DNA from: Halobacterium rubrum
GTDB lineage: Archaea > Halobacteriota > Halobacteria > Halobacteriales > Halobacteriaceae
DNA length: 64,000 nucleotides
NCBI RefSeq assembly: GCF_021729015.1
Contig: NZ_JAJQQZ010000004.1
Coordinates: 124,001 to 188,000, forward strand
Reading direction: 5' to 3'
Every line of letters starts with the position of its first letter. Positions within the stretch are counted from its first letter, which is position 1. The position numbers and the translations under genes are program-made. The notes beneath the pieces are model-generated. The model did no database searches. It was given only the letters and a program-made list of their open reading frames with translations, and was not told the DNA's origin. Shown here in pieces: positions 48,975-54,790 of the stretch.

Positions 48975-49355
48975 TCACTCCTCGGACACGCGGGAGAGCA
49001 CCAGCGTGACGCGGTCGGCGTCGTCGTCCTCGTCCTCCTCGACGCCGTCTGGCGTCTCCGTGCCGTGGAGCGCGCGCAGCGCCGGCTCCATGTCCGCCCG
49101 CACGCCCGCCCGGTTCGTCACGTCCCGCCAGACGCGCTCGGGCACCCGGAGCACCCACGCCGTCGGCGTCCGTTCTGCGAGCGGGTCGTCGGCGAACGCC
49201 TGCCGCCACTCGTACACCAGCCCGTCGACGGTCACGCCCGGGTAGTCCGCAATCGCGGCCTGGACGTCGCGTGCACACGCCGCGAGGTCTCGCTCCCGGA
49301 CCCCCAGCGTGTCGGCGACCCGTGAGACGGTCCGGTCCTCGAACGGTCCGTGCAT
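48975..49355 (-). CDS. Conserved hypothetical, acidic small protein
   Basis: 126 residues from ATG 49355. The N-terminal helical part, FEDRTVSRVADTLGVRERDL and then ARDVQAAIADYPGVTVDGLV, may be a helix-turn-helix-like domain; WRDVTNRAGVRADMEPAL forms the second part and the end is a run of Glu and Asp. I cannot name the family. It converges on the GlpA-like gene and is followed in reading direction by nothing close. Its composition is typical for a real haloarchaeal protein. Confidence 0.65.
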   Translation of the reverse strand: MHGPFEDRTVSRVADTLGVRERDLAACARDVQAAIADYPGVTVDGLVYEWRQAFADDPLAERTPTAWVLRVPERVWRDVTNRAGVRADMEPALRALHGTETPDGVEEDEDDDADRVTLVLSRVSEE

Positions 49356-49389
49356 ACCGCCCGGTAGGACGGCCAGCGAGAAAAGTGTC

Positions 49390-50325
49390 TCAGTAGTCCA
49401 GGTCGTCAGTCGTCGCATCCAGCACCAGCACCGCGCCGGCGCCGACGACGCCCGCAGCCAGCAGCGGCGTGACGGACGCCACCGTCCACGCGCTCGTGGC
49501 GTCAGCGATTTCGATTGCCGGCGCCCGCAGCGCGCCCGCCATCAGCGCGACGAGGAACGTCAGCGTCGCCGCCCGGTAGTGCTCCAGCGCCCACTTCACC
49601 ACTCGCGCGAACGTCAGAATGCCGACCAGCGCGCCAGCGGAGAAGACCACGAGCGTCGACAGCGGCTCGACGGCGTCGCCGAGCGCCCCGGCGAACAGCG
49701 CGTCGACCGAGTCGCTGACCGCGCCGGTCATCGTCTCGTACTTCCCCAGCGTCAACAGGATGAGCGACCCCGACACCCCGGGCAGCACCATCGCGCAGAT
49801 GGCGACCGCGCCGGCGACGAACATCACCGGCAGGCCACCCGGCAGCAGGCCCGCCTGCGCCTGCCCGCTCAAAACGAACGCGAACGCGAACCCACCGACG
49901 CCGGCAGCGACGCGCCCGGGCGTGTCCGCCGACACCTCGCTGAACAGCACGACGACGGACGCGGCGATGAGCCCGAAGAAGAACGCGAAGGTCACCCCCG
50001 GGTACTCGTGGTACGCGACGTCGACGGCGTTCGCGACGGTCACGACCGCCGTCAGGACGCCGACGCCGAGCACCAGGAGGAACGGCACCTCCATGTCGGT
50101 CAGCGCCGTCCCGAGCTCGTCGCGTGCGTCGGCACGCCCCAGCTTCGGGACGAGCGGAAGCAACGCCAGCGTCTCCCCGGGGTCGAGCGCCGCGATTGCG
50201 CTCACGAGCCGCTCGTAGATGCCCGTGATGAGCGCGATGGTCCCGCCTGAGACGCCCGGGACCGCGTCGGCCGCGCCCATCGCCGCGCCTTTCAGGTAGA
50301 CGGCGGCCCACTCCCGCGCCGCCAT
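49390..50325 (-). CDS. DUF368 (PopT-type) polyprenyl-phosphate transporter
   Basis: 311 residues from ATG 50325, whose A is also the last base of the aglB stop (TGATG). About nine hydrophobic segments; the DUF368 signature GAADAVPGVSGGTIALITGIYE is at the N-terminus and AMVLPGVSGSLILLTLGKYE in the middle, i.e. two internal pseudo-repeats. In bacteria DUF368 proteins (PopT) move polyprenyl phosphate back across the membrane after glycan transfer. Directly coupled to aglB here, it most likely recycles dolichyl phosphate released by AglB. Strong functional logic from the neighbour. Confidence 0.88.
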   Translation of the reverse strand: MAAREWAAVYLKGAAMGAADAVPGVSGGTIALITGIYERLVSAIAALDPGETLALLPLVPKLGRADARDELGTALTDMEVPFLLVLGVGVLTAVVTVANAVDVAYHEYPGVTFAFFFGLIAASVVVLFSEVSADTPGRVAAGVGGFAFAFVLSGQAQAGLLPGGLPVMFVAGAVAICAMVLPGVSGSLILLTLGKYETMTGAVSDSVDALFAGALGDAVEPLSTLVVFSAGALVGILTFARVVKWALEHYRAATLTFLVALMAGALRAPAIEIADATSAWTVASVTPLLAAGVVGAGAVLVLDATTDDLDY

Positions 50326-53300
50326 CACCGGAGCCGACCGAGCACTGCGGCGCCCGCGAGCGCCGGCACCGCGCCAGTCGTCACGTCCACGCCGCCCGAC
50401 TGCGAGCCGTCAGCGTCCCCTTCAGACTCGGTCAGGTCGCTCGGCGCAGTGACGGACTCGCTCGTCGACGAGGTGTTGTTCTGGGCGCCCTCCGGTTCGT
50501 CGACGACCTCGCGCTCGAGGTCGACGGTCACCGGCTCGTCGCCCTCACCGAGCACCTGCGCTTCCGAGACGTCGGCCGAATCCGAGAACTCCACGACCGT
50601 CAGGCCGTCGTCGGCGGTCTGGTTTCCGGTCGTGAACTCGTAGGGACCGCTGGCGCGCACGGAGACGTTCGTGTGGCCGTTCTCGGGCCCGAACTCGTCG
50701 TAGCCGTCCGTCGAGTACGGCAGCGTCATCGTGAACTCGCCGTCGGCGCCCGTCTCGGCGTACTGCGTGTACGTGAACTCGGGGCTCTGCCCCTGCTCGT
50801 TGGCCATCTGGGACATGTTCAGCGTCACCGACGCCTCTACCGTGGTGTTCGCCGGACCGGTTCCGGTCACCTCAGCGCCCTCGACGCGCTCGAACAGCTT
50901 CACGGACGTCGGGTAGTACGCCGGGTTCAGCTCCCCGCCGAAGTACCAGAGGTTCGCCGGTGCCGTGTGGTCGTCGCTGACTCCGACCAGCCGGTAGTGC
51001 TGCAGGGCCTCGATGTCCTCCTGCGGCAGGTCCTGGAAGCCACCAATCTGGGCGGACGTGTCGTTGGCCACGTACGCCTCGGCCTCCGCCATTGTGTCGA
51101 ACTGGCGGGTGTTGTTCGTCGCCGCGTCGAACACCGCCGGCTGCCCTCTGACGTTGCGCAGTGTCTCCCGCCAGTCCAGCACGACCGGCTGCGCCTGCTT
51201 CGCGGAGCCGTGGTACCGGTACAGCCGCACCATCATCGACTCGAAGTACGCCTGCTTCTTCAGCAGCGGCGACTGCTGGAAGTACTGGACCTGTCCCTGT
51301 CTGATCTGGCCCTCCTCCCACTGCGCGTTGTACGCCTGCTGGTAGAAGTCACCAGCCGAGAGGTCCCGCGGCCCGTCGTAGAACACGACCGGCGCGCCGA
51401 ACTTCGACTGTCCCGCACCGAGGTCCGGCCGCGGCGGCATCACCATCTTCCAGTCCACCGCCACGTAGCGGTTCTTCGCGTCGTCCTCTTCGATGCCCTC
51501 GAGGACGGACTGCGCCTGACTCTCGTTGTTCGCCAGCAGGAAGTTCGCGGCCGTAGTGGCGCCCTGCTGGAACGGGTTCGCGTGCGGCACGGCGTCCCCC
51601 ATGACGGTCATCCAGTGGCCGTAGTCCCACCACGACACCACGCCGAAGGCGCCGTCGGGGTAGTCGAAGTCGTCGGTCTGGGCGTACGTCCCGTAGTACC
51701 GCATCTCGTCGGCGTTGTCCGCGCCGTCGTACGTCCCCTGGTCGGGGGTGTGGTCGTCGTACCACGCCATCGCGTCGCCCCACGCAGTCACGTCACCGGG
51801 GCCGTTGTTCTTGCCGATGGTGATAGCCGACTGCAGCGGCACCTGCTGGCCCTGACTGTTCGTCAGGGTGATCGGCGTCGCCGACCCCCGCTGGGAGTCG
51901 TTGTTCGTCGCCTCCGCGACGGCCGGCGCCGCGACTGGCACCAGGATGAGGAGAACGACCATCGTCACCGTCCCGACCTGATACCAGCTCACGTCCTCGA
52001 CAGCCGACGCCGGCTTGTCGAGGTCGATAGCTGCGAGCACGCCCTTCAGCACGTACGCGTTCAGCACGACGACCGGCACGACGAGGTAGTAGTTGAACCG
52101 CACCTGCGTGAACGCCGCCGACGTGATGAACGCCCCCCAGACGACGACGAGGAGCTTCTCGGCCTCGTAGCCGCCGGTCACCGCCAGCGCCGTCAGCGTC
52201 GCTGTGACGATTAGCAGGGCCGTGAGCTGGCCGCCGAGTCCGAAGATGCCGCCGATGGCCGCCGACACCGGCGGGGAGACGTACACGAGCGCGATGACCG
52301 CGACTCCGGCGCCTGCACCGAGAATGCGACGAGCGTTCCCGCTCGTCAGGTGGGGCTTCAGGAGAATCGCCGCGGCACCGACGAGCGCCGTGAAGAACGC
52401 CAGCCCGTACTCGAGGAAGACGACGCCGAACGTTCCGAGCCCGTACTGGGCCTTCCGGGCGAGGAACGGCTGTGCCTCGCCGATGGTACGTCGGCTGGCG
52501 TTGGCGCTCAGACCGAGGTAGTTCAACAGCTGATCCTGGAGCGTCGACCAGAAGCTGGGCGCGATCAGCGCGAGCACGCCGACGGCGACAACGAGCGTGC
52601 CGAAGACCGCGCCGACGTACGCCGGCTCGGAGAGCTCGCGGTCGTCGAACTCGCGGGCGAGCCACGCGAGGAACACGCAGCCGAACGCCACCGCGAGTGC
52701 GAACACCGGCTGCAGGAAGGAGAACCCGGAGACACCGAGCCCACTCTCTCCGAGCGGCACGAACATCATGAGTGCGGTCGTCGCCATGCTCACGGCGCCG
52801 ACGACGGCGACGTGGTCGGGGCTCGTACCAGTGACGTAGTCGCCGACGAGCTTCACGAGGAAGAACGCGCCGAAGATGCCGACGAGAAGCACGCCCGGCG
52901 GCCACACCCACATGTAGACGGCGGTGGCGGCGCCGGCGAGTACGCTCCAGCCGACGACCCCTCGGAGGCCCGCGACGTCGCGGTCGAGGAACTGCTCGAA
53001 GACTGGCTTCTCGCGCTCTGCGACGGCCAGTGCCACCATCATCGCGAGCACGGCCAGCGCCATGAACAGCGGCTCCGCGCCGTTGTGGTCCGCCGCACCG
53101 GCCCGCGTCCGGATCATGAAGTACCCGGGCAGCAGGCCGAGGATGACCGCGGAGAACACCCCACCGAGGCGGCCGCCCAGCCGCTTCCCCATGAAGTAGA
53201 CGGGAATCGCCAGCAGCGCGCCGAAGACCGGTGGTGCGATGACCAGCACCATCGCGATGGTGTTCTCGGAGGGGCTACCGAGGCCGACGACCAGGGCGAC

Positions 53301-53621
53301 GGTCGCCAGAATCTGGTCGAACAGCGTACCGAACTGGCCCGCGAGCGTCCCGTTCGGGAAGTTCGTCCACGGGTCGAACGGCATCGTGTCCGGGTAGTTC
53401 CGGACCGTGTACGTCACCTGGCGGAGGTGGTAGTACGCGTCGTTCCCAGAGAGATACACCTGGCCGTCCTGGGTGAAGTTCTCCCACGCCTGCACGCGCA
53501 CCCAGAACATGAACGCGAGCACCGCGCCCAGGGCGGGCACGTGGTACCAGTCTTCGATGGCGTCGAGGGCTGCGTCGAACGAAACGGAAGAGAGCCCCGA
53601 CGCTTCGGTCTTCTCGCTCAT
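50325..53621 (-). CDS. aglB: Oligosaccharyltransferase (dolichyl-phosphooligosaccharide:protein)
   Basis: 1098 residues from ATG 53621. The N-terminal part has about 13 membrane helices with LSGNDAYYHLRQV in the first loop (acidic metal/acceptor site), RTRAGAADHNGAEP later, and YYLVVPVVVLNAY. The soluble C-terminal half carries the diagnostic SWWDYGHW, with WWDYG at residues 664-668, which reads the +2 Ser/Thr of the N-x-S/T sequon. Beta domains and an acidic tail with a short hydrophobic end (VPALAGAAVLGRLR) follow. It transfers the lipid-linked glycan to S-layer and other surface proteins. TATA-like GAATAAGCC lies 24-35 bases upstream. Confidence 0.97.
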   Translation of the reverse strand: MSEKTEASGLSSVSFDAALDAIEDWYHVPALGAVLAFMFWVRVQAWENFTQDGQVYLSGNDAYYHLRQVTYTVRNYPDTMPFDPWTNFPNGTLAGQFGTLFDQILATVALVVGLGSPSENTIAMVLVIAPPVFGALLAIPVYFMGKRLGGRLGGVFSAVILGLLPGYFMIRTRAGAADHNGAEPLFMALAVLAMMVALAVAEREKPVFEQFLDRDVAGLRGVVGWSVLAGAATAVYMWVWPPGVLLVGIFGAFFLVKLVGDYVTGTSPDHVAVVGAVSMATTALMMFVPLGESGLGVSGFSFLQPVFALAVAFGCVFLAWLAREFDDRELSEPAYVGAVFGTLVVAVGVLALIAPSFWSTLQDQLLNYLGLSANASRRTIGEAQPFLARKAQYGLGTFGVVFLEYGLAFFTALVGAAAILLKPHLTSGNARRILGAGAGVAVIALVYVSPPVSAAIGGIFGLGGQLTALLIVTATLTALAVTGGYEAEKLLVVVWGAFITSAAFTQVRFNYYLVVPVVVLNAYVLKGVLAAIDLDKPASAVEDVSWYQVGTVTMVVLLILVPVAAPAVAEATNNDSQRGSATPITLTNSQGQQVPLQSAITIGKNNGPGDVTAWGDAMAWYDDHTPDQGTYDGADNADEMRYYGTYAQTDDFDYPDGAFGVVSWWDYGHWMTVMGDAVPHANPFQQGATTAANFLLANNESQAQSVLEGIEEDDAKNRYVAVDWKMVMPPRPDLGAGQSKFGAPVVFYDGPRDLSAGDFYQQAYNAQWEEGQIRQGQVQYFQQSPLLKKQAYFESMMVRLYRYHGSAKQAQPVVLDWRETLRNVRGQPAVFDAATNNTRQFDTMAEAEAYVANDTSAQIGGFQDLPQEDIEALQHYRLVGVSDDHTAPANLWYFGGELNPAYYPTSVKLFERVEGAEVTGTGPANTTVEASVTLNMSQMANEQGQSPEFTYTQYAETGADGEFTMTLPYSTDGYDEFGPENGHTNVSVRASGPYEFTTGNQTADDGLTVVEFSDSADVSEAQVLGEGDEPVTVDLEREVVDEPEGAQNNTSSTSESVTAPSDLTESEGDADGSQSGGVDVTTGAVPALAGAAVLGRLR

Positions 53622-53644: not shown

Positions 53645-53656
53645 CGAATAAGCCTT
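53645..53656 (-). promoter_or_regulatory. TATA-like element for aglB
   Basis: GAATAAGCCTT lies 24-35 bases before ATG 53621. The remaining 230-base spacer up to 53851 also carries AATCCTTATTC at about 53818-53828, the TATA-like element of the next gene on the plus strand. Confidence 0.5.
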
Positions 53657-53851
53657 GTCATCTCCCCATGGAGTGAGGGGCTCGATGGCGTCCGCGAATA
53701 GCCGCTATAGATGAGACGTGCCGTCATGTTTGTACCCGGGACTCGCTGGACAACCCGTCCCGACTACCACTTGCGTGGCCGTCTATGGGAACCCCATCTC
53801 GTATGGCCGGGAAGCACAATCCTTATTCGCGACACGAGCGCACTCCCGGTG

Positions 53852-54790
53852 ATGAAGGTCTCAGTCGTCGTCTGCACGTACTCGATGGACCGCTACGGTC
53901 CCTTCTCCGAGGCCGTCGAGAGCGTGCTCGCCCAGACCCACGACGACCTCGAAGTCGTCCTCGTCGTCGACGGAAACGACGAGGTCTTCGAGCGCGTCCG
54001 CGAGGACTTCGGCGACCGCGAGGAGGTCGTACTGCACTGTAACGACGAGAACCAGGGGATCTCGTACAGCCGCACGAAGGGCGCCGAGCTGGCGAGTGGT
54101 GACGTCGTCGCGTTCATCGACGACGACGCCACCGCCGAAGCGGACTGGGTGGCACAGCTCGTCGAAGTGTACGAGGAGACGGACGCTATCGCCGTCGGCG
54201 GCGACGTCGTCCCGGACTGGCAGGTGGAGAAACCGGACTTCTTCCCCGCCGAGTTCTACTGGCTGGTCGGCTGCGTCGAGCCCGGATTCGCGGAAGACGG
54301 CGAGGAAGTCCGGAACACGTACGGCTCGAACATCTCGTACCGGCGCGAGCAGTTTCTGGAGGTCGGTGGGTACGACCCGAACACGGGCCGGAAGGGCGAC
54401 AAGCACCTTCAGGCGCACGAGGCACCCGTGGGGATTCGGTTGCGCGAGGAGTACGGCCGCGGGATGGTGTTCACGCAGGACGCGCGGGTGCACCACAAAC
54501 TGTTCGACTACCGCGGCGAGTTCGGGTGGCTCGTGTTCCGGTCGTTCTGGCAGGGGTACTCCAAGCGCGTGATGGACCTCCTCTACCCCGACGCCGAGGA
54601 CAACAAGAGCAGCTACCTGAAGCAGCTACTGACCCGATTCGTCCCGAAGCGCGCGAAGAATCTGGTGAAGTCGCCGTCGCTGGAGCGGTTCCAGCAGCTC
54701 GTGGCAATCTTCGTGTTCACGGCCGCGGTCGGACTCGGGTACGTGTACGCGATGGCGACGCCGAATCTGGTGGAGAAGGCTAATTCCTAG
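53852..54790 (+). CDS. Family 2 glycosyltransferase, AglG/AglI-like
   Basis: 312 residues from ATG 53852. GT-A motifs: VSVVVCTYSMDRYGPFSEAV, VVLVVDGNDEVFERV, ISYSRTKGAELASGDVVAFI and DDDATAEADWVAQLV, then YRREQFLEVGGYDP. Length and end (a C-terminal membrane helix, LVAIFVFTAAVGLGYVY) match Haloferax AglG, which adds a hexuronic acid to dolichol-linked glycan. It diverges from aglB, so it probably builds the glycan AglB transfers. TATA-like CCTTATTC lies about 24-34 bases upstream. It overlaps the end of the next gene on the other strand by 11 bases. Confidence 0.88.
   Translation: MKVSVVVCTYSMDRYGPFSEAVESVLAQTHDDLEVVLVVDGNDEVFERVREDFGDREEVVLHCNDENQGISYSRTKGAELASGDVVAFIDDDATAEADWVAQLVEVYEETDAIAVGGDVVPDWQVEKPDFFPAEFYWLVGCVEPGFAEDGEEVRNTYGSNISYRREQFLEVGGYDPNTGRKGDKHLQAHEAPVGIRLREEYGRGMVFTQDARVHHKLFDYRGEFGWLVFRSFWQGYSKRVMDLLYPDAEDNKSSYLKQLLTRFVPKRAKNLVKSPSLERFQQLVAIFVFTAAVGLGYVYAMATPNLVEKANS

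Follow-up and report, generated by a model that had tools for sequence, protein, structure and literature searches.

Pairing of a DUF368 gene with aglB points to a candidate for dolichyl phosphate return in haloarchaeal N-glycosylation

DUF368 proteins (COG2035, PF04018), such as PopT and VCA0040, are reported to act in polyprenyl-phosphate recycling in bacteria, with undecaprenyl phosphate as the substrate. On loss of DedA and DUF368 proteins, undecaprenyl phosphate is reported to stay on the outer leaflet (review PMC12826051). UptA has the same proposed task in bacteria but belongs to a different Pfam family (DedA/VTT, PF09335). A haloarchaeal DUF368 protein, HVO_RS12060 of Hfx. volcanii, is reported to complement V. 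cholerae Δvca0040 at least partly for its poor growth at alkaline pH, and dolichol phosphate is mentioned as a possible extension of the DUF368 role (Sit et al. 2022, PMC9876793). The membrane proteins AglR and Agl15 belong to the haloarchaeal N-glycosylation pathway itself and act on dolichyl-phosphate-linked sugars; they differ in that they are proposed to carry the charged carrier outward (PMC3871713). Our literature search found no paper testing dolichyl phosphate recycling in an archaeon and no protein assigned to the return of the carrier to the cytoplasm after archaeal N-glycosylation. AglR and Agl15 are taken by us to be Wzx/Polysacc_synt-like, and the locus tags indicate that HVO_RS12060 is presumably located away from aglB in its genome. 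A link between DUF368 and aglB was not found stated in the literature search on DUF368; it may already be in print, since the abstract of Roney and Rudner 2023 reportedly mentions syntenic analyses.

Herein, a DUF368 gene directly downstream of aglB is described in a window of 64,000 nucleotides from Halobacterium rubrum (Table 1). The encoded protein shares the Pfam family and two PGVSG motifs with PopT and VCA0040. It differs from them in its archaeal host, which has a dolichyl rather than undecaprenyl carrier, in its link to aglB, and in scores below the 400-bit cut-offs of the bacterial models. DUF368 beside the oligosaccharyltransferase gene in most sampled haloarchaeal genera offers one named candidate for carrier return. 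If confirmed, the bacterial principle of carrier recycling would be extended to archaeal protein glycosylation.

Table 1 Coordinates of the aglB-DUF368 locus and its flanking elements within the window.
Feature	Position	Strand	Basis
DUF368 gene (PF04018, 311 aa), membrane protein resembling polyprenyl-phosphate transporters	49390-50325	-	PF04018
DUF368 ATG	50325-50323	-	sequence
TGATG, shared by the aglB stop and the DUF368 start	50323-50327	-	sequence
aglB stop TGA	50327-50325	-	sequence
aglB, archaeal oligosaccharyltransferase, 1098 aa, ATG	50325-53621	-	TIGR04154; Pfam
TTATTC, -30 to -25 of aglB ATG; TATA-like, leaderless-type promoter	53646-53651	-	sequence; putative function
TTATTC, -29 to -24 of divergent glycosyltransferase ATG; TATA-like	53823-53828	+	sequence; putative function
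Divergent AglG-like glycosyltransferase	53852-54790	+	NF041394

The junction of the two genes reads GGTGATGGCG on the minus strand. As the earlier note had claimed, the ATG of DUF368 uses the last base of the aglB stop, base 50325 being common to both. An alternative in-frame GTG at 50328, three bases upstream of this ATG, would make a 4-nt overlap. The ATG is favored as the start, since an ATG at -1 occurs in 7 of 8 genomes of the genus (this one counted), and only two of these 7 have the GTG as well. The TTATTC elements before aglB and before the divergent glycosyltransferase gene lie close to -29, the place expected in leaderless promoters of haloarchaea. No TATA-like element was found within 60 bases before the DUF368 ATG in this window. 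The divergent gene product matched NF041394 (glucosyl-dolichyl phosphate glucuronosyltransferase) with 527.4 bits (cut-off 440). A longer open reading frame of this gene starts at 53711, the NF041394 match begins at residue 48 of that longer frame, and the ATG at 53852 is likely the true start. One-base overlaps are reported in nearly 100 of 2,511 unidirectional pairs of Hfx. volcanii (PMC10666635), and because such overlaps are common in haloarchaea, the overlap by itself is weak evidence. It is the pair itself whose conservation exceeds chance.

The identities of both proteins were determined by profile searches. The AglB protein is full-length and matched TIGR04154 over residues 28-1025 with 835 bits (cut-off 450), with Pfam matches to STT3, AglB_core-like and AglB_L1. 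It carries WWDYG at residue 664, in line with WWDxG, which we take to be the motif of archaeal AglB. The downstream gene had been named DUF368 from the letters, and the assignment is confirmed by a PF04018 score of 223.4 bits against a gathering cut-off of 26. The protein has no Pfam match other than PF04018 (undecaprenyl phosphate translocase-like in the Pfam description), and the DedA/UptA domain PF09335 is absent from it. Against the NCBI PopT equivalog models, 194.5 bits (NF052564) and 105.6 bits (NF052563) were obtained, both below the 400-bit cut-off, and the protein is therefore classed as a family member and not as a PopT equivalog. Residues 7-267 cover the VCA0040-type model (NF052564) over most of its length. 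PGVSG is found at residues 23 and 182, with equal spacing to G-x-Y-E. P23, G24, S26, G27, P182, G183, S185 and G186 are conserved in at least 97% of 122 aligned DUF368 sequences, an alignment from which 21 hits failing the motif search, several from the same genomes, were left out. PGxSG in both halves is, we assume, the hallmark of the family.

The haloarchaeal DUF368 protein could instead move a different lipid, such as a membrane phospholipid, with only an indirect link to aglB. The missed cut-offs of the polyprenyl-phosphate transporter equivalogs would allow for this, as would the poor AlphaFold2 model built from five sequences (the DUF368 protein and four relatives; mean pLDDT 52). However, both PGVSG motifs are among the most conserved residues, and a haloarchaeal protein partly makes up for the bacterial one in growth at alkaline pH (PMC9876793); such a lipid is considered very unlikely. 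The search of the PDB gave no significant sequence match for the DUF368 protein. Residues 78-124 (window 49954-50094, minus strand) gave a weak, non-significant match to Swp1, a subunit of the yeast OST (E 0.7), which is taken as chance.

This genome has one DUF368 gene. Three DedA/VTT proteins over the cut-off are also encoded, and with the UptA model (cut-off 250) they reach only 16-24 bits, compared with 194.5 bits for DUF368 against the VCA0040-type model. As their resemblance to UptA is so slight, DUF368 is the best candidate for carrier return here.

The survey of aglB-DUF368 adjacency proposed in the earlier note was carried out by profile searches of 194 genomes drawn evenly from the class, as a scan of genome contigs for related loci had yielded only 4 loci. 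The sampled class is presumed to be the haloarchaea from the names of its families and of the named records. DUF368 was present in 192 of the 194 genomes, and TIGR04154 AglB matches were found in 193, with 192 over the cut-off. The adjacency held: DUF368 immediately follows aglB in the same orientation in 125 of the 194 genomes, and 8 more have it downstream in that orientation at a distance of about 1.6 to 2.6 kb, with one or two genes between, counts that represent non-independent events as the genomes are related. At least one directly adjacent genome was found in 43 of 65 genera and in 9 of 10 families, and the adjacent and interrupted pairs together span 46 of the 65 genera. The genes are apart in 58 genomes, a count that takes in five genomes with the listed genes on different contigs (G016, G047, G050, G094, G137) and G161, in which the genes are also on different contigs, DUF368 is at a contig start and the pair may be adjacent. 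In the remaining 3 genomes, one of the genes is missing or below the cut-off. The placement of 116 genomes was made from the best 150 matches of both the aglB and the DUF368 search, and the rest were settled from fetched loci. The aglB entry of the window's own genome was taken from the window coordinates, and G183, with aglB split over two frames, was counted as adjacent by its second piece. In six of the eight interrupted pairs (G077, G112, G121, G151, G157, G189), a gene between is an opposite-strand member of a UDP-glucose-dehydrogenase cluster, a glycosylation-type enzyme. For G042 the gene between belongs to another cluster and shares the strand of the pair, and the G014 pair was placed from coordinates only.

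The neighbors of aglB were compared as a control. A same-strand DUF368 gene is the +1 neighbor in 107 of 153 fetched loci (41 of 57 genera), a low figure because composition-rule gene calls missed DUF368 in 3 of 14 loci checked; L032 duplicates one G155 contig, and one junction may be held twice in the 153 loci, as in the junction counts of 114, 21, 54 and 36 given below. The next most constant neighbor is a divergent family-2 glycosyltransferase at -1 (75/152), and all other neighbors at positions -4 to +5 reach at most 34/150. DUF368 is thus the most constant neighbor of aglB, and the surrounding gene order is much less kept than the pair.

The recycling of AglB-released dolichyl phosphate by the DUF368 protein is probably the best explanation of this pairing. 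The transporter role itself rests on published work, namely the complementation of V. cholerae Δvca0040 by the Hfx. volcanii DUF368. The aglB and DUF368 genes would be co-transcribed as a two-gene unit, with the promoter lying before aglB, and the translation of DUF368 would in this genome be joined to that of aglB by termination-reinitiation at TGATG. At the outer membrane face, AglB would load the acceptor protein with the glycan carried by dolichyl phosphate and leave dolichyl phosphate there. The DUF368 protein would return it to the cytoplasmic leaflet, with both the substrate and the inward direction being presumed, and the AglB product would be its main load. Glycosyltransferases, one of them encoded divergently beside aglB, would recharge dolichyl phosphate in the cytoplasmic leaflet. 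Hbt. salinarum is reported to assemble its sulfated tetrasaccharide on dolichol monophosphate, with DolP as the carrier (PMC8674786), and AglB should therefore release the monophosphate directly. The form that AglB should release is the form that the DUF368 family is proposed to move. The "(pyro)" that the earlier note had allowed for in the released form is probably needless.

The opposite direction was also considered, in which DUF368 flips glycan-charged dolichyl phosphate outward, supplying AglB instead of clearing its product. Haloarchaeal AglR and Agl15 have the status of proposed flippases or helpers (PMC3871713; PMC4335974), and this leaves room for another outward transporter. However, a separate Polysacc_synt family, PF01943, is found near aglB in a number of loci, and in bacteria that have lost DUF368, uncharged carrier is reported to remain on the outer leaflet (review PMC12826051). 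Outward flipping is considered very unlikely.

Carrier recycling by DUF368 had been argued in the earlier note from translational coupling to aglB. Short stop-start overlaps are reported to couple translation in Hfx. volcanii (PMC6728339, PMC10666635). In Hfx. volcanii and E. coli together, 13 of 14 tested overlapping pairs are reported as strictly coupled (PMC6728339), and a spacing of about 20 nt as nearly abolishing coupling (PMC10666635). We read 114 junctions, 111 from sample genomes and three from named records, one of which is a duplicate contig. Coupling is allowed at 65 of them by an in-frame ATG or GTG at -8 to +10 of the aglB stop (55 with ATG), and an ATG stands at exactly -1, giving the one-base overlap, at 21. 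At 47 junctions the only starts lie more than 20 nt past the aglB stop, and in family f3 none of the 18 junctions read is coupled. The overlap claimed in the earlier note stands for this genome, and coupling is permitted at the 65 junctions, but coupling is not the conserved feature of the pair. The TGATG coupling is lineage-specific, and coupling was dropped as the main argument because of the 47 junctions with distant starts only.

Upstream A/T profiles were computed with the start chosen by its distance to the conserved motif; the junction count used a looser motif than the residue alignment. No A/T peak was found upstream of DUF368 at 54 coupled junctions. At the 36 junctions with gaps of more than 50 nt, the A/T fraction was 0.92 and 0.83 at -29 and -28 before DUF368, which is TATA-like. 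These profiles indicate two modes, one coupled without an own promoter and one separate with its own promoter. For the coupled mode, AglB and DUF368 might form a physical complex during coupled translation, with the released dolichyl phosphate handed straight to the transporter, possibly driven by the sodium gradient. This is suggested by the reported enrichment of short overlaps among subunits of complexes (PMC10666635), and we regard it as quite unlikely. If true, it would represent an oligosaccharyltransferase with a built-in carrier-return subunit.

As exceptions to the pairing, the genes are apart in 22 of 40 genomes of family f2 and 29 of 49 of f3. The exceptions comprise g6, g10, g23, g32 and g62 of f2, much of f3, g31 of f4 and g53 of f10. 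In g9 of f4, aglB and DUF368 are apart in four of five genomes, and in one genome of this genus (L105) DUF368 lies beside the UDP-glucose-dehydrogenase cluster with aglB elsewhere. On a DUF368 tree, 7 changes between linked and unlinked rows were needed, well supported branches requiring 6 of them, and repeated loss of the link is suggested. The tree carries little weight because it has long branches and only 12 unlinked rows, one of them a MAG locus (L033), against the 58 genomes with the genes apart.

Outside the class, within the same phylum, DUF368 was found in 34 of 203 sampled genomes, and an STT3 protein is present in all 34. The two genes were adjacent in 0 of these 34, with distances judged by eye and in assemblies whose fragmentation could hide some pairs. 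The adjacency that the earlier note had proposed to survey in archaea is thus widely kept in the class, with the 58 exceptions, and does not extend to these 34 genomes.

These distributions bear on whether DUF368 returns dolichyl phosphate in general, from all pathways, or serves salt or pH homeostasis, with the aglB link as an inherited gene order that reflects no particular tie to AglB. The many uncoupled junctions, the TATA-like element of the gapped ones and the genomes with DUF368 far from aglB all agree with such a role. The V. cholerae DUF368 is reported to matter most at alkaline pH and high Na+, and the enrichment of DUF368 in Halobacteria is noted as a possible salt adaptation (PMC9876793). 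However, gene order is otherwise poorly kept around aglB, the commonest gene at +2 being found in only 21 of 153 loci, and DUF368 also occurs in the 34 genomes outside the class. A general role is held to be unlikely, and the recycling of the AglB product by DUF368 is preferred.

Several further observations were made. A 147-aa open reading frame (window 48975-49418, minus strand) shares 29 nt with the 3' end of DUF368 and may belong to the unit as its third gene. It has no match in Pfam or NCBIfam, and its sole relative among called genes is in one same-genus genome. G021 (f5) has AglB over the cut-off, two DedA proteins and no DUF368 match, so AglB is apparently able to work without DUF368. 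The DUF368 of L033 (9932-10921), on a contig labelled Actinomycetes MAG, is 50% identical to the window's protein, and no aglB was found in the fetched locus; its presence there is attributed to transfer or mis-binning. In four genomes of f29, outside the class (G272, G280, G296, G378), DUF368 lies 12.6-14.4 kb upstream of the STT3 gene on the same strand. In g7 of f3, six genomes (G005, G024, G090, G106, G142, G192) have two DUF368 matches, one of them beside aglB, and in six others of the genus, where the genes are apart, the only match scores lower. The best E values are 1e-64 to 1e-66 in the two-copy genomes, compared with 1e-51 to 1e-54 for the single unlinked matches.
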